From Telopea speciosissima (Eukaryota > Streptophyta > Magnoliopsida > Proteales > Proteaceae): a stretch of 64,000 nucleotides of DNA. Under the pieces are notes generated by a model. The model saw only the letters and a list, made by a program, of their open reading frames with translations, was not told where the DNA came from and ran no database searches. The stretch is taken from contig NC_057925.1 of NCBI RefSeq assembly GCF_018873765.1, positions 57,176,970 through 57,240,969 on the forward strand, written 5' to 3'. The position numbers were made by a program, and so were the translations under genes. This document shows, one piece after another, positions 1,162 through 63,854 of the stretch. The first letter of the stretch is position 1, and every line of letters starts with the position of its first letter.

Positions 1162-2061
1162 TTTTATCTATGATTTAAATTAGGGGTGTAAATGAATAGC
1201 CGAAATCCGTTTCTGTATCATTGTCGGTATCCGTTTAGCACTATCAGAATCCGTCCGAAAGCTAAACGGATGCGGATATGGATAGGCTATAGCTATCCGA
1301 AAAGTTATATTTACATGTAAACGGATAGAATATCCGATCCGTATCCGTGTCTGTATCCGTTTAGCACTATCCGAATCTGTCCGATAGCTAATCGGATGCA
1401 GATGTGAATATAGCACTATCCGAACCGAATCCGATCCGTTTACAACCCTAATTTAAATCTCTTTCGACCAATATATTTGGTACCCATTATTTAATTTTGG
1501 ATAAATTATAGATCACCCCCTGGTTTTCAATTGAAATTCAGATCACCCCCTGATCTTTGAAAAAATTCAAACCAGTCCTTAGTTTAGACTCCAAAATGAC
1601 AAATTAGTCCCCAACGTTAGTTTAATGCTGTTAAGTGATGATATCAGCCAGTTAAATAAATTTAAATTCCTAAACTACCCTTGACAAATGTTGAAGATGA
1701 AGGAATGGCAGTATTGTAAATTTAATTCTAATGTTTTAGTATAAGGGTAAAATAGTCCTTTCACACCAATAACTAACAGCAGACTAACACCGTTACTGTA
1801 GGGGACATTTGAGTTTTTTCAAAAACCAGGGGATGATCTGAGTTTCGATTAAAAACCAGGGGATGATCTATAATTTACCCTTTAATCTTTGGTTTGCTGA
1901 ACTGGGTTAGTTTCATTTTATTGTTTTGGTTGCAGATTTGTGATGGGTTGGATAGATCTCCTTCTCTGTTAAAAGCTAGATTAGAGCAATTAGCCGGCAA
2001 ACTTCTTTGGTTGAGGAAATCATCTTCTTCGCTGAAGAGAAATTTTGACCAGCTGGACTGA
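529..2061 (+). CDS. bHLH transcription-factor-like protein, copy 1 (2 exons)
   Basis: Exons are 529-1119 and 1936-2061, giving about 238 aa. The ATG at 529 is in good context (aaccATGGc); the frame is open upstream to a GTG at 505, but no earlier ATG lies in frame. The basic region at residues 33-45 has the H35-E39-R42-R43 arrangement typical of E-box/G-box binding plant bHLH proteins. Helix 1 (ELF/LSLHALLP type) spans about 46-58 and helix 2 about 67-90. A C-terminal region (about 125-190) with the pattern VSIRIRGD...SLT...LEIVRSTH resembles the ACT-like domain of plant bHLHs. The splice donor AAG|GTCTGC and acceptor TTGCAG are also present in the paralogue. The 816-base intron holds two MITEs. 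A nuclear DNA-binding regulator is expected from the family. The exact subfamily (bHLH95/35-like) is uncertain. Confidence 0.8.
1181..1450. mobile_element. hAT-type MITE in bHLH intron
   Basis: Termini are TAGGGGTGTAAA and TTTACAACCCTA. They are flanked by perfect 8-bp duplications ATTTAAAT (1173-1180 and 1451-1458). The paralogous intron in unit C has a single ATTTAAAT at 14,129-14,136, which is the empty site. Inside are two approximate repeats of about 50 bases, rich in 'ATCCG' (near 1232-1283 and 1358-1405). An 8-bp duplication and TAGGG ends are typical of hAT elements. Confidence 0.92.
1499..1880. mobile_element. Mutator-like MITE, copy 2, in bHLH intron
   Basis: This 382-bp element has long terminal inverted repeats starting GGATAAATTATAGATCA and its counterpart. 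It is flanked by a 9-bp duplication, TTTAATTTT at 1490-1498 and TTTAATCTT at 1881-1889 (one mismatch). The paralogous intron at about 14,168 has the uninterrupted site. A 9-bp duplication with long inverted repeats is diagnostic of Mutator-like elements. It is homologous to the element at 1-366. Confidence 0.92.
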
Positions 2062-2528
2062 TTGACTGACCGATCAACTGCCTCACCAATCAACACTTAA
2101 TCTGCGTCTCGTCTCAGTTATCACTTATTACCCCTTCCCTTCTTCTTTTGTTTTTGCAGTTAATGGTGCCTTTGATTGGGTGTTGGCTCGTTTAACTCCA
2201 TTTGTTTCAGATTTCTTTTTCTCTTTTTTTTTTGTTTAGTTTTCCTATTTTCCTCCCTGCTAACCCCAATCTTAGACAGAATTGGAAGAAATTTTGTATA
2301 TGAAATCATGAAAACTACAGCTTTCAATCTTGAAAAGAAGAGCGAGAGAGTTTTGGAATTAAAAGGAATAGCTTTGGCATGCTTGTCCTTCTCTGCTTTT
2401 CTTCATATTCCGCTCAAATGAGGAAGGTGATGATGCTCCATTGGCTTATGATTCCTGTAAAAGCTGCAAAAAGTGATGGGATCATTGATGATTAACCGAG
2501 AGGAAAAATAATTAAAACTAAAATAATA

Positions 2529-2600
2529 GAGATTGCGGGGTATCGATCCCCGTACCTCTCGCATGCTAAAAAAGGACTATACAATCTGAGCTACATACCC
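2529..2600 (-). pseudogene. Degenerate tRNA-Ala(AGC), unit A
   Basis: The minus strand reads GGGTATGTAGCTCAGATTG... with the loop TTAGCAT (anticodon AGC) and the T-arm CGGGGATCGATACCCCG. The 5' side of the anticodon stem has become a T run that no longer pairs with GCGAGAGG. The D-arm has lost its GG, and an extra T shifts the 3' acceptor strand. It is therefore probably not a working tRNA. Confidence 0.85.
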
Positions 2601-3156
2601 TAATGTTTTATTAACATTTTTATATTATAATTATTTCTAATTATCATATATGATACAATTCCTTCATTCATCTAAGAGTGTCTACATGACACTTCCATAG
2701 GTCTATTCAGAACTTAATACCTTCTTTTATTTGTCCCTTATTTTATTTTCAAAAGTTTTTCAAGATAATTTTTCAGTTGTCTAACTAACAAAATTTTGGC
2801 TATTTTTTTTAAAAACCTATTGAAATCGAGAAGAGGAACAAAAAAAAAGAGAGGAGCTTCCCGTTCAATAGAGTTGGAAACTAATTGGCCCTTGTGAGCT
2901 ATTCTTCCAAGTGGTAGTAACTTTGATCATTTTAACTTTTGAAATAACTTGAAAATTGTTTAGACAAATCACATTTGAATATTATTAGCCCTTTTAATCC
3001 CAAATTCCCAATTGGATTGAATTGAAGTTAAGAAAAAAAAATATGGGAGGATATTGGAGGGGTTGTGAGTGTATTGGGCTTGTGAGAGTTATAGACTCTA
3101 GCTCCTCTCTCATTTATCTCATTAGTGTTCTAATACTATATTTATTTGGATTGACC

Positions 3157-3297: not shown

Positions 3298-4605
3298 GCA
3301 TCCTATATTATTGAGCAATTCAATGGGCAATTGCACATCGGTTGTAGGCTGATTTATGTTACTAGCTATTGGGAGTTGAGGACCTACTTGCCATGAAGTA
3401 GGCGGCCGGAGAGGAATCTCTCCTACAGACTAAGTATCAACAGTACCAATGGAAATGCATAGGAGAGCAAGTCTTATAATATGTTCAATTATGGGATGTT
3501 GGATGGTTAGATCTAATATTTGTGAGAGTAAAGTTTCTCACATCGCAATCACAGTATGAGAAATGGTTTTGTTTAGTAAGAAGTCTATATGGTGTCTAAG
3601 GAGAGAGTGTGTCAGTACAAATTCACAGCTCATTATGAGAGTGTATGAGAGAGAATCCTCAAGTTGACTATAGGGAATTCTTTGCTTCTTTTTTTTTGAT
3701 AACTTGACTGTGCAAGCTAATAGCAAAACTTCGAATATTTGCCATGGTGTTTTAACCAAGACTATATATGCCATGTGTGAATTGGCCATGGACCTCCAAC
3801 AATTCAAACATGCTTGATCAAGACCAAATCGTTTCCATCTAATAGTCATAATGGCCAAATCCAATATCACATGGTGGACAATAAACTTATTTAATCGAGA
3901 CAACCATTTATATACTTTTGCCTCATACAATAATTAAAAGAATTTAAATATTTCAAAGGATTTAGGGTTTCTTCATCTTATGGAAACAAAAAATTAGTGA
4001 AGTAGGAATCTAGAGGTGTGGTGTCACCTTGTAAGTACCTTGAAGTTGATGCTCATGATGATATTGGATGAAAAAAGTCATCTATTTATTAATTTGATAT
4101 ATAATTTTAGGGAAAATGTTGTATGCCCGGAGGCGCAGGCTGCACCCATATGATCTACCTTGTATTAACGAGGATTATTGCCACATGTAAGAGAGTATCT
4201 TTGGGTTGAGAAACTTTTTTGATTTTATCTGGGCCTTATTTGATTATATAATATTAACATTTGATTAATTAACATAGCTTTAATTAGTACTTTTAGCTTA
4301 GAAAAAGAGTCATTGGATTTGATTCGGTGAGAATAGTTATTAGTTATATATAGAAACCCAACTCCCAAGGTTATGGGGATGGATTATTAGGACACTTGGA
4401 TGGGCTGTACCAAAAGTTTAAAAGCTTTTTGAATAGAAAATTCTCTCTTTTTTTGGTATATGATTTGAATAGAAAATTCTGATCATGTGGAGATGAGTTA
4501 CATGGTCCCCACAATCTAATATTAAATAATTAATAGATAACCTCCACGTGGTTGTGGTGTCTTCTACGATTTCCTCAGAGTGAGAGAAAGAGAATTTAGT
4601 TCGTC

Positions 4606-4770
4606 TTCAGAGAGGTGTGGGCCCAAGGTACTATCAGAGGACATCCAATGATTGAGCTATACCGCACATATCTTGATGCATGCCTAAAAATGTGTGCAGC
4701 ATAGTCCCACAACTGACAGCGCCTTAGGCGTTCCCTGCTCTCTGGAGACGATCCTGATCCTTGAGAATCC
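4606..4770. repeat. Second, diverged foldback repeat in unit A
   Basis: The arms contain CCAATGATTGAGCTATACCG and the matching inverted ...CAGCATAGTCCCACAACTG. The counterpart in unit B is at about 10,632-10,800. The sequence is similar in theme to the foldbacks at 3157, 7450 and 15,401. No gene is seen here. Confidence 0.55.
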
Positions 4771-5046
4771 AAGCCCATATTCCCGTGTCGCTGTGACTCT
4801 TGTGAGTGATTTTCAGATTTTTTTATTTCCACGTTTTTTTTTCCTTCTTCGGTTTGAGTGCACACGTAACGGAATTTAGTTATTATGTACATTATAATAA
4901 GGTTGTGGTCCTCGTGGAAGAACCTGCAATAAAATATGGGTCCATAGTTAGGCCCTCTACACGGCTACATCCAGCTAAGGGACCTGCAATAAAAAAAGAT
5001 TGTCTTATGATTTGTATATAGGGTGACCAACTTGGTCAGTGAGGAG

Positions 5047-5277
5047 CATGGTTTGAAGAATCAATATCGAATTGGATTATTCATATCGTTATGCATGAAG
5101 ATTGATATCGATTCCTCAAATCGGTACAAAAAAGTATTAAAATGTACCAATAAAAAAAAAATCGATTTTTTTGAAGAATATAGGGGTAAATCTATTCAAT
5201 CCAAACCAATATGGACTGATCCAGATTAGTATCGATATCAACCAACACCAATATCAATACCAATTACTAAAACCGTG
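5047..5277. mobile_element. TIR element (CATGGTTT ends), unit A
   Basis: The left end is CATGGTTTGAAGAATCAATATCG. The right end is the inverted CCAATTACTAAAACCGTG. The AT-rich interior repeats 'TATCGAT'. The orthologous copy in unit B is at 11,086-11,325. Shorter relatives in both units are at 6602-6714 and 12,843-12,955. It is probably a MITE of unknown superfamily. Confidence 0.55.
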
Positions 5278-6601
5278 ACGAGGAGAGGGAATGTGTGTTA
5301 GAAAAACAACACCCAAAAATGGGGATTTTAGAAGAGAAAATAAACACAAACACACAACACCAACGATTTACATGGTTCACCCCCAAGAAGGTAAGTTACA
5401 TCCACGACCAGCGATAGAAATTAGTTTCACTATTTCTCTGAAGAACAATTACAAATCCTCAAGTCTCACCTTATCATAACAACGAGATAATAACACTTTA
5501 TAAAGAAGCTATAACCCAGAAAAGTACAAAAATGCCTTCACGAGCCCAAAAAACCCACCCAGTCTGGTTCGGACTAGAACTAAACATATATCGAAAAACA
5601 TATCGATTCAAAGGTCTCGACGATCTCTATAGGCGTCGACTCTAATGTATGCATTTTTAGACGTTGCGAGCACATTTCGAAGCCGAAACGATCATTCGAA
5701 GTACCCCACTGTACTTTCTGAACTGAGATCAAACTTCACCAATAACAATGTGAAAGAATATCTACTATTGGCATTGGATAAATCATTTTCCCTTAAATGT
5801 ATGATGTTGAAAATTTTTAAAAAAAATGCCAATAGTACTATTCTTACAACATATTTTTATAATTATATATATGATAATAAAAAAATTAAAATGTTTCTAA
5901 TTATTAACAATTCAAATTGTTAACATTAACTTTACAAAAATTAATTATTAATTTTTCCAACCAAAATATTTAGATTTGAATATAAAAAATAGGAAAAAAG
6001 AATCGCATGACACCATTATATGGATTCCTTCGCATGCCCCTCACAAAATTGTTGATCCCACACTCTCTCTCCTCCATTAAAATACCCCTCTACTTTTTTC
6101 AATAGAACATTGAAAAAAAGAAAAAGTATCTCTATTTGATGGTTCGAAACTTGGAATGCCCATTGGTGCAAAAATAAACACGGTCTTTGAGGAAACCCTC
6201 TCCTATAAAAATATAGGTTAAGAAATCACTTGCTTGATCGTGTATATTTGAAAACAGTTCCATTACCACATTTAATAAGATTCTAAGTCAATTATACTTT
6301 TTCAATCACAATTTGGTGCTTAGGTAATCTGCCCCATCCCTTATCCCTTTATAAAAATTCAATTCAAATCAAACCTTAACTATTGAAATTATAAGAAATT
6401 AGATCAATTACAGAAATTGTAAAAAAAAATTCAATACAATATGAACCATATGGTTGAATTGAATCTTCAAACTTGATGTACCCTTAAAATTTTATTTATT
6501 TTTTGGTTGAGGATAACCTTAAAATGACATTTTTCCATCCAATGGTTTTTATTTTCCACATAGATTAAACCAAGTAGGACATTACTCCAAACTCTATAGA
6601 G
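5278..6601. repeat. Non-coding repeat stretch in unit A
   Basis: No supportable gene was found. Bases 5340-5470 contain a 'GATTTACATGGTTCACCC...TTACATCCACG' block of the kind found in copia LTRs; similar wording recurs at 42,940-43,000. The rest is AT-rich and matches 11,326-12,842 in unit B. Unit B has about 165 extra bases near 12,318-12,483. Confidence 0.6.
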
Positions 6602-53581: not shown

Positions 53582-56500
53582 TCAGACTTTTCTCATCAGG
53601 AGAAACAACCTTTGGTCCAACTCAAAATTGGCAGCATTGGAAGGATCCCCCTTCAGCATCATCAGAAGGCCACCATACGAAACATACATCTCCCTGAACC
53701 CAAAGAAATAGAATCAGTGACAGCAAAATCCTTTTTAAGATTGTCTCATCATAGAATGATCTAGAACCCATAGGGTGTTAAAAGAATATGAATCAAAACA
53801 CAGCAACAAATAAATAGGTAAGGAAACATGTTACATACACTTTAACATTGGCTCCAGAGCCTTCCTCTGAGATCTTGTACAGCTTCCCATGCATGACATA
53901 TTCGAATTTATCGGCTAGTGACTTCCTATTTCCCTGAAGAAGTGCCACACTTCAGAATACAGTGAGCACCTTTTAAAATCCTTCAGCTTGTTGATTGAAA
54001 TGAACAAAAAGAGCACAAATACTTCTCATGGTTTAAAGGATCAAACAATCCTAAGTGAATATACACCAAATCAACTGATAGGGTTTGGCGATCGACAGCA
54101 ACCAGATAGGGTAAGGCTGGAAAATGGAAATCACCCAATTTCGATTCCAATATTTGAAACCTTGATACTAGATATACCCACCCCAGTGAGGAAGAAATCT
54201 ACTAGTTATGGCAAATTGATGGTTTACCCAGATCGACCCCTGCCAAACACCTACCCCCAAGAAAAGGAAGAAAAGGAAAAAGAATGGACTCGGTTTCTTG
54301 GATTCTAGGTGGAGCCTGAGTTGAGGTCTTCATAACCTGACGTTTAACATGCACTAATGCATATGGACAACTAAACAAAGACAAACTGATATGCTTACTA
54401 GCTTTTTAAGTCATTATAATACACTGCATAAAATCTAGATGCTGAGGTCTACAACTTTTGTCTTACGGGCATACGTGGATCTATATAAAAGTAGGGTATG
54501 TATTTGTTTTAGGAGTTGTTGTTTATAAGTGGGTTACATGGGAGTAATAGGGTATGTGGATGTTGTGATAACGTGTGCAGTTATTTGTGATGGGGAGTTG
54601 TTAAGCTGAAGGGATTTATATGAAGTTATTGTAACCAATTGTAAACCTATTAAATAGGGATAATCGAGAATGAATTGGTAAGCAATGGAAATCCTAAAAT
54701 ATCTCTGATGCAGGTTCATCATAGAAATTGGCTTATAATAGGCCTAGGGTTGGGTTATATACATGTTGGGCCTTTGTTCCCAAGGGTTTTCTATGTATTA
54801 GGCCACTTTAATGAGTCTAAATTATGGGTACATAGGTTGCATACGGGATTAGCCCAATACTTAGTTTATTTTTATGTTTTTTTAATTGAACCGATTCAAA
54901 TTGGTTGCATCCAATTGGTTCAATTTAAGTGATCATGTGACTTGGTTAAGTGGTCATGTGACAACTTAAGTGGTAATGTGATGTAAGTTGGGCTGGATAG
55001 CCTGGATTAGGACTCTATAAGTCCAGCCATGTTTTGAGTCTATTTCCTTTAGTATTTTAGTTTCCTAGTCAGTTTAAGTTACCTAATAGGTTAGGGATAC
55101 GGTTAGGCCTTTCCTTTTTAGAGTAGAAGTCTATTTTTTAGTCTTTTATATAAGGTTGTAAGGGGGCAAAGCCTTGAACACGAATTTTGATTAATGAAAA
55201 GCTTTTGTTTGCTGCCATTGCTGCTGCCCTGCTCTGTTGAGTGTTGCTCCTTGTGAGTGTGCATCCTTGTGGTTCTATCAAGGTGGAAAGGGACTGGTGG
55301 AATCCGGTTGACTCCTTACACCGTGACGGCTGGGAGGATCTTCTTCAATTCGAAGGTGGTTCTATCCTTCACATCTGTTCAAGCTGCTGCCAGTGGAATC
55401 TCCAGTAAGTTTGACACCCAATTTCTTCTTCTAACCCTCTAATCCTTTCCCCCAATTGATCCCCTTTATTTTTGGTTTGAATCCCATAAACCCTAACTCC
55501 ATTAAACCCTAGATCTTGCTGCCCAGCCATATTTAACCATTAGAATTACTTCAAATTCAAACCACAGCCTCTCCTTAACACCCCCTACACTCGACCCAAG
55601 CTGCTGCCCATATTTGTCTTTCAAAACCCTAAATTTGACCTAATTTCTAAAACCCAAAATCTGAAACCCTATCCCTAATTTCTGGAATTTTCAATTCTCA
55701 TCTAAACCTAACCAAATCTAGCTTTCTAAACTCCCCAAAACCTGCCTAGTTTAATCGTATAAACTATATTTCTATTATCCTACCCTAACCCTAGGAATTG
55801 ACCTAAATCCTAGTGCTGTCCATTCGAACCAGCAGCCCCTTTTGTTATTTGATCCTGTTGTTTGGCTCCTAGTAGGTCTCCTACCTATCTAGGACTACAT
55901 TAATCTCTCTTGAAATTATCTAGAGAAGAGGTCGGCTATGGCTTTGTCCGTAAGACCAACTCTTAATGCATTATTATCTCTTCCATCTTCAATCCTAATT
56001 TCTCTCATTCCCTATTATCTCTCCTCTCTCCTACCCATGCACACATCATGTTGATAGTGGACATCAGGGAATGAATCCCACCTCAAGTTGGAAGAAGGGA
56101 AGGAGGAGATGGGATTTGGAGGTTAGGTGTTGAGGAATTATGGTTGTACCAAAAAAGACACTAAATTCTAGATTTTAAGCATATATATAATCTTGGGTTG
56201 GATAACTATGACCCTAGCCTAGCCAACTTACACAATGCCCACCCCAGCCTAGGTAAGAATAAACCAATTGAATGACATTACAAGCATTTAATCCATCATC
56301 TTCGCAAACCTTTAGCCATATGTAAAGAAGAATGTCATTAACAAACGTATACTACCATCCTTTCAGAATATTTGACATTTTGAAGCAAATATAATATTTT
56401 TGGGGGACTAATGACCTGAACTGAAGTTTTATATGGGAACTTTTTAGGTGAACCCTGCTAGATATTCAAGTGAAATTCATTCTCCAACCAAAATTGCAGT

Positions 56501-59500
56501 CATTTTGCCAACTTTGTATTCACAAGTCACGACTTCACTACAACCATCAATCTTAAGGATGATACTATTTTGTTATGTGCTGGCTCATTAGCTAGGTAGT
56601 CAAGAGACGAATAAGGACTCTGCCTGATCAAATCCATCCATGACCTGAGCCCAAGTAGATCTTAGAGAATTCCAATCTAAAAATAAGCTAGGATCCAGGA
56701 AACTTAAGCCCAGACAATTTTTTAGTGCGTCTTCAGCATGGATGAGTGGACCCAGACAGACGACAGTTTAATTATTTCAGATAGAATAGAAGAGAGCTGT
56801 TCACCAAACATAATCAGCATATTTCCTTTTAACAAGACACATATTGATGCACTCTTCTGTAGTATTTCTGAACTTACTGAATAAACAGGTAGTTGACCAG
56901 CTTAACTCTTCCTCCAACACCCACCCCACCCCCCCACCCAAAAAAAAAAAAAAAAATAAAATAAAATAAAAAAACAGCCACAAACATTGTGTTAACATAT
57001 ACATCTTAAATAGGGGACATTACATACAACAATAAGCACATTACCTGAGTAAAATAACCAGTATTAGGAGTTCCATCCAAACTTAATGTATTAGCAAGTA
57101 CCATTGTGAATTTCTCTCCAACATGAAGAGGATATATTTCTGTATTCACATCTAGCTGCATGTACATATCGAACTGCTCGCTCCGTGCTTCAATGCGAGA
57201 AACTACATAAACATATAGTATTAAGAATGATAATATACCTGGGTAGTTCTAAATCAGACCACAATAGATATTGAGTGATTCATTGCATAGGAAACGCAAT
57301 CTGTAATATTCAGTGGGAATTTTTGCAGACAAATTTAGCACGCAAGCAAACAACCACAGACAATATGGTACCACTATAGAGAATCTACAAGCACCAGTAA
57401 AATAGTCAGTGACAATCATTGCCTGCTTGTGCACTTAAAAGTCACTTTTGACTATAAACTTTTGAATACAGGGAGGGGGTCCTCTAAAAGCCATTATATG
57501 CCCCCCCTTATAAGAGATTTAGGAGGCTTATATTCACCATGGGAGCCCACAAAGCCCAAGTCAAGTCATTAATTTTATCCCATTTATTTGGGTTCAGCTA
57601 CATGAGGCCCTTTCCATTATTTCTGTTCCATGCATATTTGCAGCTAATTCAAGGCACCAAAGGATTAATACAGCAGACGAGAAACAAGACTGCCAAGAAA
57701 TGAAATTGTTTAGTTCATGGGAGCTTCTTGCTTTGTGATTTCTGTTGTCCATAATCATTATTATGATTCAGTGAGTTATTTAGGGGTTGAACAGTAATTT
57801 TCCTCCATCTAATTGTCTGGTGTCTATAAGTAGTTTATGTTGACTGTTGAGTCACAAACGGTTGCACCAAAAAAAAAGAGGGTTTTTTACAATTACCACC
57901 CCAAAATCTTTCATATTTACTATTACCCCCCCCCCAAAACTTTGAAACAACTGTTACCCTCCCCTGTTGCATACTAATAACTAACTGGCCCCCACCGTTA
58001 CAGACCCGTAACGGAGGGGGTTAGTCGTGAAAGTGTGCTGTTGTCATGAATTTTCTAGGACCAAAATGCCCTTTTGGGGTGGTAATTGTAAAAAACTCCC
58101 ATCCCATCACCGTCCCTTCTCCTCCTCCTCCTCCTTCTCCTTCTTCTTCTCCTTCTTCTTCTTCATCCTCTGCAATTCATCTTTGATCTTAGATTCAAAA
58201 AAGCAAAAAATAGAAGGAAAAAAAAAAAAAAAAGAAGAAAAAGAGAACCCAATTAGACAGAATTGCACAGTGAGCACCAATAGAAGCAAATTACAGCTTC
58301 TCTAGTTTCTAAAGATCAAGCAGATCGACACTGTCAGATTCTTCAAGATCAATTAGAGAACAGAGTATCCCATACTTCCTTAAATACCTCAATAATAACT
58401 TTATGATAATGAGAGGAATTCAAACTCAGAAAACACTGTAAAAGCTTCTCCAGATCCTCTTCTGCAAATAACTCCTTCTCTACAATCATTTCCACCATTG
58501 ATGTCCTGAAATCATTATACGGATCACTAGACCGCTTCACCACAGCGATCCTTTCTTGTAATTTGCCCCCTGAATCAAATGGGTCATGACTCATTTCAGA
58601 ATTCCTTCTCCGGCGAACTTCAGCGGCTTTCCGGCGGTAAATCTCAGAAGAATCAGAAGATAAACTCTTTGAAGATAAAAACGTTTCTGTCTCGTCTCCA
58701 GATTCTTCAGTACTGAACCACCCACTATCACTTTCTCCTCATGAAGAATCAAAATGAAATCTTGATTTGTTGTTCATAGATCGCTGATTCTTCTTCTGCT
58801 TCGTTTCCTTTGACTTAATTTTTCACCTTTTTTATTCAAATTCCTCAAGCTTGTAATATGAATTTAATGGCGAAATGGGTGATGCAGGGGGACAAGTTCT
58901 TCCTTTAGCATCATCAAAGCCGAAGCATGGGCTTTGTTCCATCAATTCTGGACTCTGTAACTTCTCCATTGTTGCGAAACCATCCTCTGCAGATGATTCA
59001 TGGCGGATTTGAGAGATGAAAATGGCTACGCTTCGTGATCGACACGACCCAAATGAAGCACGGAACATGCGAGAGAGTCGTAGTTTGAATCCACCCATCA
59101 TTAGAGTGATTGCAGAGAGACACACAGAGCTTTGAACGGAGATTGCGCGCTTTGTTTATATAGAGTATAGACTATCCAACAAACCGAATATTTTTGTCTC
59201 TTTCTTCCTTGAAATTTAAATAGAAGAAAGAATTTTTTTTTTTTTTAAATCTACTTTCGTCATCTTTGATCATTTTGGCAATCGGCAATTCTAAATTCAT
59301 CTCTGGAATCAGGTGGTTGGGGTTGCAGAGGATGAAGAAGAAGAAGGAGAAGGAGAAGGGAAGGTGATGGGGTGGGAGTTTTTTACAATTACCACCCCAA
59401 AAGGGCATTTTGGTCCTAAAAAATCCGTGACAACGGCACACTTTCACGACTAACCCCCTCCGTTACGGGTCTGTAACGGTGGGGGCCAGTTAGTTATTAG

Positions 59501-60604
59501 TATGCAACAGGGGAGGGTAACAGTTGTTTCAAAGTTTTTTTTTGGGGGGGGTAATAGTAAATATGAAAGATTTTGGGGTCGTAATTGTAAAAAACCCCAA
59601 AAAAAAAGGTTACAAATGGTCTCTTGGATCAAACCCTAGTGGTTTTAGGAATGTAAATTACTCCTACGTTTTCATTAGTTTTACATTTTAAATTAGGATG
59701 ACTTAAGAGATTTACTCTGTTTCAGTCCTAAACTCCTATTACAGTTAAGAATTCAAAACATTTAATAATCTTCAATAATAAGTTAATGACTTGAATTCAT
59801 GTCTTAGTAGGATATAAGGTTATATAAAAAGGGATATCAGGGTCAGTTATAAAGATGGATTTGGTTTGATGAATATCCGGATGTGGATTCGTGAAGGAAC
59901 ATCTATTCTTCTTAGCCACAGCTAATTACATTTAACTATTAGCTACGACTAGGTTGTCTACTTTCTATTTATTGCTATTATCTTTGATCCCAGTCTTGAA
60001 ATTTTAAAATTCCGGTCAGTTTCTTCTACCATTTATACAATCCTACACTGGATCTTTAATTCTTTATAAATTAACCTGAGGCAAGTATTCTTTTTCAATC
60101 TCTATCAAGTCCCATCAACTGATCGACTTTATGCTTTCCTGGCAGGCAAACTGGATCCAAAATCAAATCTTAATCTTTTTTACCTAGGAAATATCTCCCT
60201 TGCACTATTGGGACAAATTTGATTTCCCCCAACCTCCTCCTTTACTCATCCCATACATATCCATTTATCTTTGATATGTCCCGCATGCCCATAAATCCCA
60301 ATTCCTTAACTTTCTCCCTTGCACTTCTATCTTCTCTTTCAATCTTTTTTCCCATTACATTATTGATGCACTCTATTAAGCCCTAATTGTTACCCTACAA
60401 ATTTAAATGAATTATTGGTTGATAACCTCATACCCTAGGGATTTTATCTGGGAACCATTACCCACATGGATTGGTGAGATTAAATTACATTGACAACAAA
60501 AATGCAATGGAGGAAGACTGGAAGGTAGTACCTTTATCGAACTTTTTACCATCTGGATCCAACCGAGTCACAGTAAAAATATCCTCAAAAAGAAGCTCAA
60601 CCAT
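53582..60604 (-). CDS. NRPB8: RNA polymerase I/II/III shared subunit RPB8 (4 exons)
   Basis: Minus-strand exons are 60,604-60,532; 57,202-57,045; 53,933-53,839; and 53,693-53,582, giving 145 aa, the usual plant length. The protein starts [20 protein letters not shown]. Exon 2 begins [20 protein letters not shown] and ends [11 protein letters not shown]. Exon 3 carries [20 protein letters not shown] and exon 4 [20 protein letters not shown], ending LLMRKV. All phases join cleanly (G|TT, phase 0, GT|G). RPB8 (RPABC3) is an OB-fold subunit common to the three nuclear polymerases and is essential in eukaryotes. A possible extra 5' UTR intron ends at TTAAG just upstream. Intron 1 (3.3 kb) hosts a Pack-MULE and intron 2 (3.1 kb) an LTR-like segment. 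Confidence 0.95.
54700..55900 (+). repeat. LTR-like segment in RPB8 intron 2
   Basis: Starting near TGATGCAGGTTCATCATAG, it contains repeated 'AAGTGG.CATGTGA' blocks. A promoter-type section follows (TTTTATATAAGGTTGTAAGG with TTAATGAAAAGC downstream), then CTGCTGCC-rich leader sequence and GGTGGAATCCGGTTGACTCC. This organisation resembles a plant LTR. The right border and a target duplication were not found. It is antisense to the host gene. Confidence 0.5.
58349..59125 (-). pseudogene. Captured OVATE family protein (OFP) gene with three stops
   Basis: One frame runs 259 codons. The likely start is the Met pair at 59,101/59,098, in [20 protein letters not shown], the classic OFP N-terminus. 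The middle part is [20 protein letters not shown] and [20 protein letters not shown]. The C-terminal OVATE domain is intact: [39 protein letters not shown] and [16 protein letters not shown]. The frame is never shifted but is broken by TAA (58,832-58,834), TGA (58,823-58,825) and TGA (58,739-58,741). OFPs are intronless plant repressors that bind TALE homeodomain proteins. The copy has the same orientation as RPB8. Downstream Met codons could in principle start an OVATE-domain-only product (for example at 58,594, 81 codons). Confidence 0.9.
59154..59163 (-). promoter_or_regulatory. TATA box captured with the OFP gene
   Basis: The minus-strand CTATATAAAC lies about 55 bases upstream of the Met pair and inside the inverted repeats. 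The element therefore carries the OFP core promoter and 5' leader as well as the coding region. Confidence 0.65.
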
Positions 60605-61793
60605 CCTTCAAGAAATTGTACCTTAACAACCAAAATTCACCTACAAAAAGAAACAAAGCCACAACATTTAACCAAATGCAATCATCTATAAGAGAAGCCT
60701 TACATGTTAGACACATAAAAGCTGCGAAAAACATGCAACAAAGCTCAAGAGATCCTTCTCATGACAATCATGTTTAGTTGCTTCTTTGAAATATCACAGA
60801 GAGTAAAGACTTCCTATTTATAGCTAAACATAACAAAAAGCTTTTAATGCAAAGCAAAGGGATACATATTCTCTTGTGAGAAGCACCAAGAGAGAACTGC
60901 TCAGTTCTGATCTCCTCCTTTCACCACAACCCAACACTAGTTTGGATAGGCAGACCAAAATTAACTTTCTTCCCCCACCACTGCCACTCCCCAAAAATAA
61001 GTAACCAAACTGACCTGATTTGAACGTTGAGAAGTGCTCTAACACCGGTTGAAGGTTCCATACAAAAAGGGGAAGTCAAAAGCTGATGTGGATTTCTCCA
61101 GTGAAAGTATATGATTATGCACTTTTAACCAAGGACATATAACCCTAAACAGAATGGGATTGTAAGCCAAGATCGGTGTCGCTGAACCAAATTGCAGTGG
61201 TAGTAGATGTGATGATGATCCATTTCACAGACCAAGGAACAGAAAATAGATTAACTTTGACCCGACTAAAATAAGGGAAGGCATTTTGTCTTATATGAAA
61301 CAAGGTGACAAATTCTCTATACATAGAAGGAATAAGAGGTTACTAGACACCCACAACTTTCAGAGGTGTTTAACTGACAACACAGTAATATTAGAGAAAG
61401 GGCAATAACATCAGGAACATCAACGTCATATTAAAGAATGCACACTAGACAGTATACACCACTTAAATGTAAATGTTTTGGTTTCAAAGCCTAAGTATTC
61501 CAGGTTGTCAAATTAGCACTTCGCGTTTAACTGCAGTATAAAAAACTTAATATGACCAGTCAGGTTTTATTTGACTTCCACAATCAAAAGAAGACCAGAA
61601 GGGTGAATGTAGTAACTTCAGTTCTTACAACAACTGTTCCAAGTTCACTTTTGATTTTGAGTTTATCAGAATAAGGACAATAAATACTAGATTACCTTTG
61701 GGATGCCCGAGTGAGTATCGATAGCTTATTGTACAAGACCAACAGCAATTCCAACTCCTATGAATAGAAAGAAAATTCTTTTCCAAATACCAC
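60605..61793. other. Spacer between RPB8 and the PPR gene
   Basis: It contains the RPB8 5' leader and promoter and the PPR 3' region, which lie on the same strand. The frame at 60,824-61,045 (minus) has no recognisable domain and is probably leader sequence. No repeats stand out. Confidence 0.55.
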
Positions 61794-63854
61794 TCAAACT
61801 AATGATCCAGCCACATCATGATGATCATCAGAGTCTGTTCCGTCCACGAACAATATATCCTCCAAATAATCTTTCAATGATGGATAACATGCGTCACCTA
61901 CTTCACCAGCACGGGCAAGACCATCTAGTAAAATATCAAGTGTGGCCTTATTTGGCATAAACCCCAAATCCTGCATCTTGGCTAACAGCTGGAGAACTGA
62001 ATAAAAACGGTTGGACTTCACCAGGAAACGGATGATCATATTCAATGCAACACAGTCAAGATCAATCCCAACTTCAGCCATGTCTCTTAGTAACCATTTA
62101 ATTGAATTCAAATCCCTCAATTTACAAAGGCCACAGAGCATTACATTGCGAGTATATGTATTAGGAACTACACCGACCTCTTTCATCTGTCTATACAATG
62201 TCAAAGCCTCTCCAGTTCTACCTCCCTGGAGAAATCCATGGATTGCGACAGTATATGACACAACATCAAGGGGGTACTTTTCAGCAATTGCCTTCCTGAA
62301 CAACCAGATTGCTATATTTATCTCACCTACTTTAATGAGCTCACCAATGATCACGGTATGGATGTGAGCATCAATACCAGAACTATTCCTGACTATCCTA
62401 TGGTAGACATTAACTGATTCTTCAATTCTTCCTGCTCTGCATAATCCACTTAACAGTGCAGCATAACTATACCCATCTGGGGTAAAATCTCTGTCTACCA
62501 TGTCATAATAGAAATCTACAGCTTGTGAAGGGAATCCAACTTTGCATAAAAAACATAGAAGGGAGTTGCAGACAACAAGGTCAGCTGATGCAACAAGTCC
62601 CCTAATCACCAGCTGGGGAAAAAGTGCATATCTTTGTGACAAACATAGAGTAGACAGTACAGAAGAAAAGGTATATGAATCAGGTTTTAGGTTCATTTTA
62701 TGCAACCCAAAGAAGATGCCAAGTGCATCATCATACCTCCCAATCTTAGACAAAGAGTCTATTAAGACATTATAAAGAACCAAGTCAGGCAAACACCCTC
62801 CGGATACCATGGTATTTAAAATTCCGTACACCCTATCCAACATATAGGATCCCAGAAACCCCTTAATCAAGGAAGTATAGGTTACAACAGTAGGAGAAAG
62901 ACCAATCTCAATCATCTTCTTCAATAAATGACTTGCTTCATCAAGTCTACCAGCCCTGCTTAATCCATCAATCAATATGCTCCAAGCAGTCACTGAAATG
63001 GGAATACCCGAAGTTATCATAAATGCCAACACTTGAAAAGACTCCGCAATCTTACCACTTTTGCAGAAACAATTCAAAACCATTACAAAGGTCTCTATGT
63101 TTGGATAAAAACCCTGTCTCAACATCGTTTGTAAAACATCCCAAAGGGCAGACAAATCATTCACCTTGCAAAGATTACAGATTGCAATGTTAAAAGTAAG
63201 AAAATTCGGGAGTCTTGTATCTCTAAGTACCCTAAGGGCAGCATCAACATGCCCAATCTTGAAGAAGACATCCATAACCATGTTCCTTGCAAAGGTGTTT
63301 GGAGTGTAACCAGAACCAACCATCTCCTCAAAAGCCTCCAAAAACAATCTATACATTCCTCCACGCCAATAGATTCTTAACAAAATCAAAAAAGTTAGTG
63401 GCTTCGTATAACACCCAAAATGCTCTAACTCTTTAACAAGCGTTTTCACGGATTTAAGCCGACCAGCGAGCCGAGAGACAACAACAACCATTTGATCGAA
63501 AGATTTGGGATTATGGAAATAATTTGGTTGACGAGCGCACCATAAGAAAAAACTCAGTGCGGTCATATCAGAAGGACAATTCAATAAGGTCGATTCCACA
63601 ATCTGTGGAGTGAGACTGATTTGACACCTCACTGGAAGTTCTGAGTGGGAAAACCTCTTAGAAATTTGTATATTATTATTACTGGGTGAGCTACTCGCTA
63701 AACATCGTAAGTGATGGATGGATTTCACAGATTGGTTTTTGAGGATTCGATTCGAAGTTTTCTGGAACGACCTCCAGCTCAGTATCATAATGATATACAA
63801 AGCATTAACCTTGAAGACGTAAAAGAAGTCAAGGGGGAGAGAAATTCTTATCAA
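61794..63854 (-). CDS. P-class pentatricopeptide repeat protein (intronless)
   Basis: A 686-aa single exon. From about residue 130 to 650 it is made of tandem 35-residue helical pairs. Typical units are SVTAWSILIDGLSRAGRLDE, VTYTSLIKGF, LVLYNVLIDSLSKIGRYDDA, YSYAALLSGLCRAGRIEESV and NTYTRNVMLCGLCKL. Alternating A/B helices are visible, and no E, E+ or DYW extension follows, so it is P-class. Met23 (63,788) begins MILSWRSFQKTSNRI, a Ser/Arg-rich mitochondrial-type presequence, and is a better start than Met1. The overall organisation resembles Arabidopsis At1g16830 by memory. PPR proteins bind organellar RNA; the target is unknown. It ends in an acidic tail (DGTDSDDHHD). Confidence 0.93.
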   Translation of the reverse strand: MIRISLPLDFFYVFKVNALYIIMILSWRSFQKTSNRILKNQSVKSIHHLRCLASSSPSNNNIQISKRFSHSELPVRCQISLTPQIVESTLLNCPSDMTALSFFLWCARQPNYFHNPKSFDQMVVVVSRLAGRLKSVKTLVKELEHFGCYTKPLTFLILLRIYWRGGMYRLFLEAFEEMVGSGYTPNTFARNMVMDVFFKIGHVDAALRVLRDTRLPNFLTFNIAICNLCKVNDLSALWDVLQTMLRQGFYPNIETFVMVLNCFCKSGKIAESFQVLAFMITSGIPISVTAWSILIDGLSRAGRLDEASHLLKKMIEIGLSPTVVTYTSLIKGFLGSYMLDRVYGILNTMVSGGCLPDLVLYNVLIDSLSKIGRYDDALGIFFGLHKMNLKPDSYTFSSVLSTLCLSQRYALFPQLVIRGLVASADLVVCNSLLCFLCKVGFPSQAVDFYYDMVDRDFTPDGYSYAALLSGLCRAGRIEESVNVYHRIVRNSSGIDAHIHTVIIGELIKVGEINIAIWLFRKAIAEKYPLDVVSYTVAIHGFLQGGRTGEALTLYRQMKEVGVVPNTYTRNVMLCGLCKLRDLNSIKWLLRDMAEVGIDLDCVALNMIIRFLVKSNRFYSVLQLLAKMQDLGFMPNKATLDILLDGLARAGEVGDACYPSLKDYLEDILFVDGTDSDDHHDVAGSLV

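Follow-up and report, generated by a model that had tools for sequence, protein, structure and literature searches.

Probable capture of a whole OVATE gene by a Pack-MULE-type element in the first RPB8 intron of Telopea speciosissima

Introduction

How did an almost whole OVATE (OFP) gene come to lie inside an intron of RPB8, and does it still encode a regulator? The question is raised by a 64,000-nucleotide stretch of Telopea speciosissima DNA (contig NC_057925.1, positions 57,176,970 to 57,240,969; the window hereafter), in which an initial annotation had described a Mutator-like element (MULE) carrying such a gene. That description is borne out in most respects. Very probably, the element is a non-autonomous MULE of the Pack-MULE type, which would have captured a whole OFP gene at the DNA level, been mobilised in trans and settled in RPB8 intron 1, where the OFP copy would now be a decaying passenger. 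We observed a family of terminal inverted repeats (TIRs), target-site duplications (TSDs), an intact OFP gene elsewhere in the genome, further copies of the loaded element, a paralogous RPB8 gene without it, and neutral-looking change in the copies.

Results

A whole OFP gene between inverted repeats

The element spans 1.72 kb (57878/57880 to 59597/59598; features are listed in Table 1), and host gene sequence lies between the TIRs of what is a non-autonomous element. Its two arms (57880-58175 and 59323-59597) are identical at 263 of 272 aligned bases, with gaps of 3 and 24 bases in CT-rich or homopolymer low-complexity stretches. At 296 and 275 bp they agree with the roughly 290 bp originally estimated and fall within the 100-500 bp that excerpts of PMC3310237 give as typical of MULE TIRs. 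The 21-base TIR end occurs four times in the window (at most three mismatches) versus none in 100 dinucleotide shuffles.

The interior matches an OFP gene at 23.114 Mb of C8, which aligns with the cargo only (93.9% identity over 1,110 columns) and has an uninterrupted 250-aa frame with no intron in it. The surrounding 9.9 kb contains no inverted repeat pair that brackets this gene; hence an intact gene without TIRs exists elsewhere in the genome. A second OFP of high identity was what the initial annotation had proposed to look for, and we treat the C8 gene as what survives of the source lineage. Within the element, the captured DNA extends from a TATA-like box to beyond the stop codon, indicating that the whole gene was packed. 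The arrangement is best read as whole-gene capture, probably a DNA-level event, of a gene that is now broken.

The OFP copy begins with the KLRLSRMFR block and retains a complete OVATE domain (PF04844 positions 1-58 of 58, E 7e-26 for a query with X at stops), both as first described. The frame itself, put at 259 codons, has 251 including the final stop and is interrupted at codons 90, 93 and 121, leaving ATG-started pieces of 89 and 81 aa. A Pfam scan of the three minus-strand frames across the region returned Ovate and Rpb8 alone.

The TIR family and sister copies of the loaded element

A search of the host assembly (823 Mb, 1,287 contigs) with the element gave at least 102 matches, mostly to the arms. 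Because 40 of 874 first-look candidates were scored, the TIR family is larger than the sample described here. At least four full-length loaded copies lie on four different contigs: the window copy and those at C11:45.67 Mb (93%), C3:66.70 Mb (94%) and C2:39.27 Mb (91%), the last having the most diverged TIRs of the four. They form one group in the tree (support 100/99). The target duplications of the sisters are CTTATAAAA (9/9), TATTAGAAT (9/9) and AAAGAAGAA/TAAGAAGAA (8/9). Thus, the loaded element occurs in several copies with distinct TSDs and flanks, indicating that it was mobile.

In other members of the family, the same arms enclose different internal sequences. We counted 13 paired elements with both arms whole at their ends; this set includes the three sisters and leaves out the window copy, L026 with its truncated arm, L027-L030, where a single arm is visible, and L010, whose second arm runs off the end of its stretch. 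A perfect 9-bp repeat flanks seven of the 13, an 8/9 repeat two, and no clear repeat the remaining four. The chance of a perfect 9-mer match is about 6e-6 at the assumed base frequencies, a figure that AT-rich simple flanks would raise. The inverted repeats therefore belong to a multi-copy family with target duplications and are not a low-complexity artefact, which settles a further check that had been suggested for this locus.

One family member (L020, C8:33.20 Mb; G000:C8:33203716-33206582, 501-2366) has the arms around a seemingly complete three-exon rbcS gene whose exon stretches lack stops (PF12338 positions 1-45; PF00101 positions 1-34 and 35-97; exon borders predicted from the DNA). Its flanks show no clear 9-bp repeat (6/9), and for that reason transposition of this unit is less certain. 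The initial annotation had called a nearly full-length cargo uncommon. The OFP cargo does span a whole gene, but the same TIR family also flanks this rbcS, so that the claim needs care.

Two further pairs of the TIR family, L018/L031 and L017/L019, have internal sequence in common within each pair. In L018 and L031 one frame starts ELQRHQASVN..WAPHSS; we presume that it resembles a WD40 (TTG1-like) protein, and the L031 piece had no hit in Pfam.

The OFP copies change as if unconstrained

All four copies keep the 753 coding bp with zero indels relative to the C8 gene. Premature stops fall at codon 97 in the C11 copy and at codon 90, as in the window copy, in the C3 copy; the C2 copy has none. 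Scored against the majority reference of the four copies, with a stop common to two copies counted twice, the changes sum to 8 synonymous, 22 nonsynonymous and 5 nonsense, for a random expectation of 27%, 69% and 3.7%. The synonymous share fits an absence of constraint (P 0.65). Purifying selection was thus not detected, at counts so small that weak constraint would still be possible. With its three stops the window copy lacks an uninterrupted frame, and the description of the cargo as a nearly full-length regulator does not hold for it as a statement about coding.

Could one of the mobile copies nevertheless be expressed and functional, the window copy being its dead sister? The candidate is the C2 copy, with its fully open frame of 250 codons and PF04844 positions 1-57 of 58. 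A TATA-like box and 5' leader were captured with it, none of the four copies has a coding indel, and along the path from the C8 gene to the copies there is a synonymous excess (13/23, P 0.004). Constraint along the branch of the C8 gene itself, however, can account for that excess. The 11 changes in the C2 frame comprise 8 nonsynonymous and 3 synonymous, as in the absence of constraint, and a frame would stay open through 11 unconstrained changes about two times in three (P 0.66). The TIRs of this copy, moreover, are the most diverged. We regard a functional C2 copy as unlikely. Selection on its open frame was considered separately and received no support from these figures.

Mutations are unevenly distributed between arms and cargo. 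With gapped columns omitted, private changes number 88 in 4 x 541 TIR bases, of which 55 are C-to-T or G-to-A, and 31 in 4 x 753 coding bases, of which 7 are of these types. This pattern would fit methylated arms around a less methylated cargo.

Probably one element rather than two

Each arm contains, about 190 bp inward, an inverted 25-28-bp repeat of its own terminal sequence (in the left arm, 25 bp at 58072-58096). Each could therefore be read as a miniature inverted-repeat transposable element (MITE) of about 220 bp, and two such MITEs might have arrived by separate insertions to the left and right of an OFP gene or copy, so that their outer ends merely resemble one element. Mobilisation of adjacent transposable element pairs is, in excerpts of PMC8903248, a proposed route of capture for Pack-TYPE elements. 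However, the inverted similarity continues for about 75 bp past the putative MITE ends, with the same sequence in both arms. The entire unit is present in four places, with a 9-bp target duplication in two sisters and 8/9 in the third, and the same arms enclose other internal sequence in further family elements. A misreading of two MITEs as one element is thus largely refuted by the sister copies, and we consider it very improbable. The original capture might nevertheless have proceeded through a pair of MITEs.

A processed retrocopy of OFP mRNA, later flanked by inverted repeats, would explain an intronless copy, but the C8 frame is intronless too, the upstream TATA-like region and the sequence after the coding region are colinear with the C8 gene, the captured segment has no run of A after the stop codon on the sense strand, and a sibling element retains the rbcS introns, leaving this origin a negligible chance.

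A 45-bp stretch (59267-59311) separates the right TIR from the captured region upstream of the OFP. Neither the 9.9 kb surrounding the C8 gene (best E 0.19) nor the other loci compared gave a significant match to it.

The host gene and a paralog without the element

The element had been placed in the first intron of RPB8 and in the same orientation, and both points stand: the intron has GT...AG borders, and the OFP copy and RPB8 are on the minus strand. RPB8 exons 1 and 2 match RPB8 chains from solved RNA polymerase structures (best E 1e-32). RPB8 is not single-copy in this genome: a further gene whose exon-2 protein is identical (L054, C10:7.63 Mb; G000:C10:7631600-7635200) lies on the same contig. 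Its intron aligns with window positions 57643-57843 (78%) at 1445-1646 and with 59612-60926 (69%) at 1650-3071. As three bases separate the two aligned blocks, the paralog lacks the element.

The arms within the RPB8 transcript could pair as a 263-bp duplex (computed energy -498 kcal/mol), a plausible though putative source of small interfering RNA. Next to the element, the left flank at 57850-57868 (GTCACAAACGGTT) is similar to the right flank at 59608-59625 (GTTACAAATGGTC). Together with the bases absent from the RPB8 paralog, this likeness may be the trace of an earlier, small rearrangement where the element inserted.

Elsewhere in the window, a 664-aa open frame on the minus strand (61794-63788) adjoins RPB8; it may encode a pentatricopeptide-repeat protein. 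Rfam at gathering score and ARAGORN (for tRNAs) gave no match in the window. No relative appeared among IMG/VR contigs (searched with the TIR end and OVATE), prokaryote contigs (OVATE) or plasmids (protein and element), as expected for a plant element.

Table 1. Positions of the element, its cargo and the surrounding RPB8 gene in the window
Feature	Positions	Strand	Remarks
Left target-site repeat, C-A9-G	57868..57878	.	A9 core 57869-57877; from sequence, boundary set by sister copies
Left TIR	57880..58175	+	296 bp; self-alignment and family members
Captured segment	58174..59266	-	colinear with intact OFP gene G000:C8:23.114 Mb: 5' flank, coding sequence, 3' flank; 93.9% over 1,110 columns
OFP coding copy	58349..59101	-	251 codons including final stop; no indel versus C8 gene; OVATE domain C-terminal
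TATA-like TATATAAA	59155..59162	-	54-61 bp 5' of ATG; TATATAAA at corresponding position in C8 gene; predicted from sequence
45-bp stretch	59267..59311	.	between captured OFP upstream region and right TIR; common to all four element copies
Right TIR	59312..59597	-	59323-59597 (275 bp) pairs with left arm; several family matches extend to 59312
Right target-site repeat, C-A9-G	59598..59608	.	A9 core 59599-59607; from sequence
RPB8 exon 1, coding part	60532..60604	-	24 protein letters
RPB8 intron 1	57203..60531	-	3,329 bp, GT...AG; contains element
RPB8 exon 2	57045..57202	-	protein match
C-terminal part of RPB8	53588..53692	-	PF03870 positions 107-141

The same OFP lineage in a second set of inverted repeats

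Scoring of all 36 candidates gave 22 OVATE-domain matches in the genome. Seven of the 22 lie between inverted repeats, six of them copies of one gene lineage; the test covered about 1.5 kb on each side of every locus, so that larger elements would be missed.

Within this lineage, L012 (C2:59.04 Mb; G000:C2:59033000-59042900, 4003-5606) holds 737 bp of the OFP between a second set of TIRs. These are about 430 bp long, 83% identical and unrelated to those of the window element, and the flanks contain a AAAAATATA repeat if the right end is allowed to shift by one base. A frame is open from the L012 arm into the OFP and up to the OFP stop (299 codons). L013 (C8:60.36 Mb; G000:C8:60352800-60362700) likewise holds 737 bp of that OFP in a more complex inverted-repeat arrangement, whose ends are not resolved. 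Matches between the window element and L012 or L013 are confined to the cargo.

A tree rooted on the closest paralog, L032, has the topology (L032,(B,(C8 gene, A))), where A denotes the four window-type copies and B the L012/L013 lineage. Support is 100/99 for A, 86/83 for B and 80/87 for the C8 gene with A, and the strict mark of the tool is reached by the A branch only. A and B share a state that differs from the C8 gene at seven coding sites. L032 is informative at five of these and has the A/B state in every case, indicating that no shared derived change joins the two captures. L032 is distant (59% aa), and 2 of 8 judgeable A-only sites and 3 of 6 judgeable B-only sites look ancestral or recurrent, so that the outgroup result is support, not proof. 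Considering also the differing captured ends and TIRs, the best reading is that the OFP lineage was probably captured twice.

A third TIR family (L051, G000:C10:8.809 Mb, 1208-2516) has 270-bp arms that are 93% identical, a TSD of AAAAAACTA (9/9) and, as cargo, a fragment of a different OFP, closest to L046 (92% over 202 bases). The VQ family, chosen as a background for capture, has 34 matches in the genome; we make no claim of preferential capture of OFP genes.

Discussion

The history of the locus is probably as follows. An OFP gene would have been captured at the DNA level, through gap repair or gap filling or through template switching during MULE transposition; excerpts of PMC8277862 discuss gap filling and template switching as models of capture. 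Transposase supplied in trans would then have moved the loaded element. Once in RPB8, the insertion would be spliced out with the intron and be near neutral for that gene, and the OFP copy would be a decaying passenger rather than a working regulator.

Several observations weigh against this account. The target repeat of the window copy is low-complexity and slightly out of register. With ends as in the sister copies (GGG...CCC), the exact direct repeat is C-A9-G, 11 bp; there is one additional A before the left end, and strictly 9-bp flanks mismatch. The perfect A9 duplication first reported is thus correct in that A9 runs flank both sides, but, with those ends, not as an exact 9-bp repeat in register. 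Taken alone, such a repeat is weak evidence of target duplication, and the proof rests on the sister copies; where TSDs are clear in the family they fall within the 9-11 bp of MULEs, with 11 bp at the window copy. The RPB8 paralog also lacks about 35 immediate flank bases, most of the A9 run included, and has about 700 intron bases of its own nearer exon 2; it is therefore a diverged empty site and not an exact pre-insertion site. The lack of any indel in 4 x 753 coding bases would be mildly unexpected under pure decay. Nonsense changes exceed expectation in the OFP copies: in the window copy they make up three of six changes, with no missense (P 0.001), or two of five when the shared stop is excluded (P 0.013), and over all copies there are 4 separate nonsense events in 34 (P 0.04). 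Finally, no autonomous MULE-transposase partner was found in what was scanned, the 4.7 kb beside the solo arm L030 (which held a gypsy-type domain); no genome-wide transposase search was made.

The element belongs to the known Pack-MULE kind. It shares with the Pack-MULEs of rice and other plants a non-autonomous MULE structure with long TIRs, a 9-bp TSD, host gene cargo, an unlinked intact gene and several transposed copies. It differs in that the cargo takes in an entire gene, including its TATA-like box and 3' flank. Excerpts of PMC3310237 name genes or gene fragments as Pack-MULE cargo, their worked example holding a fragment, and those of PMC8277862 describe protein-coding Pack-MULEs as rare. 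The literature searched, in the excerpts it offered, has no record of a Pack-MULE carrying an OVATE gene.

Likenesses to other systems are partial. The tandem-TIR MULEs of tomato and Arabidopsis (Ferguson and Jiang 2012, PMC3310237, in excerpt) also repeat TIR-end sequence within one arm; here, in contrast, the 25-28-bp end alone recurs, inverted, and there is no second complete TIR in tandem. As for Pack-TYPE elements formed from neighbouring transposable element pairs, two compatible elements could conceivably have captured the host DNA between them in this case too, but the excerpts of PMC8903248 concern PIF, hAT, Mariner and CACTA elements, whereas ours is a Mutator-type family with long arms. 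KI-MULE of Arabidopsis, too, is a MULE with a coding gene; according to the source excerpts it is a non-TIR MULE (PMC2528002), and the gene is a protease gene (PMC8277862).

What the locus adds is an intact source-lineage gene, graded siblings and repeated capture. Whole-gene capture is here well anchored by that gene, by four copies at differing stages of decay and by a paralogous site free of the insertion. With these, one can ask for how long a captured frame remains open, and whether MULEs sample genes at random or prefer particular genes that are short and lack introns. They also carry a warning for annotation: six copies of the lineage, enclosed by inverted repeats, are among the 22 OVATE matches, and one with an open full-length frame would pass as a family member. 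A bolder proposal, which we hold to be improbable, is that MULEs in this genome repeatedly copy complete promoter-bearing genes instead of fragments, as the two captures of the OFP lineage, the third family's capture of another OFP and the rbcS would suggest, and that at least one copy, the OFP at C2:39.27 Mb or the rbcS at C8:33.20 Mb, is an expressed mobile paralog. If that were true, MULEs would be a route of whole-gene duplication for developmental regulators.

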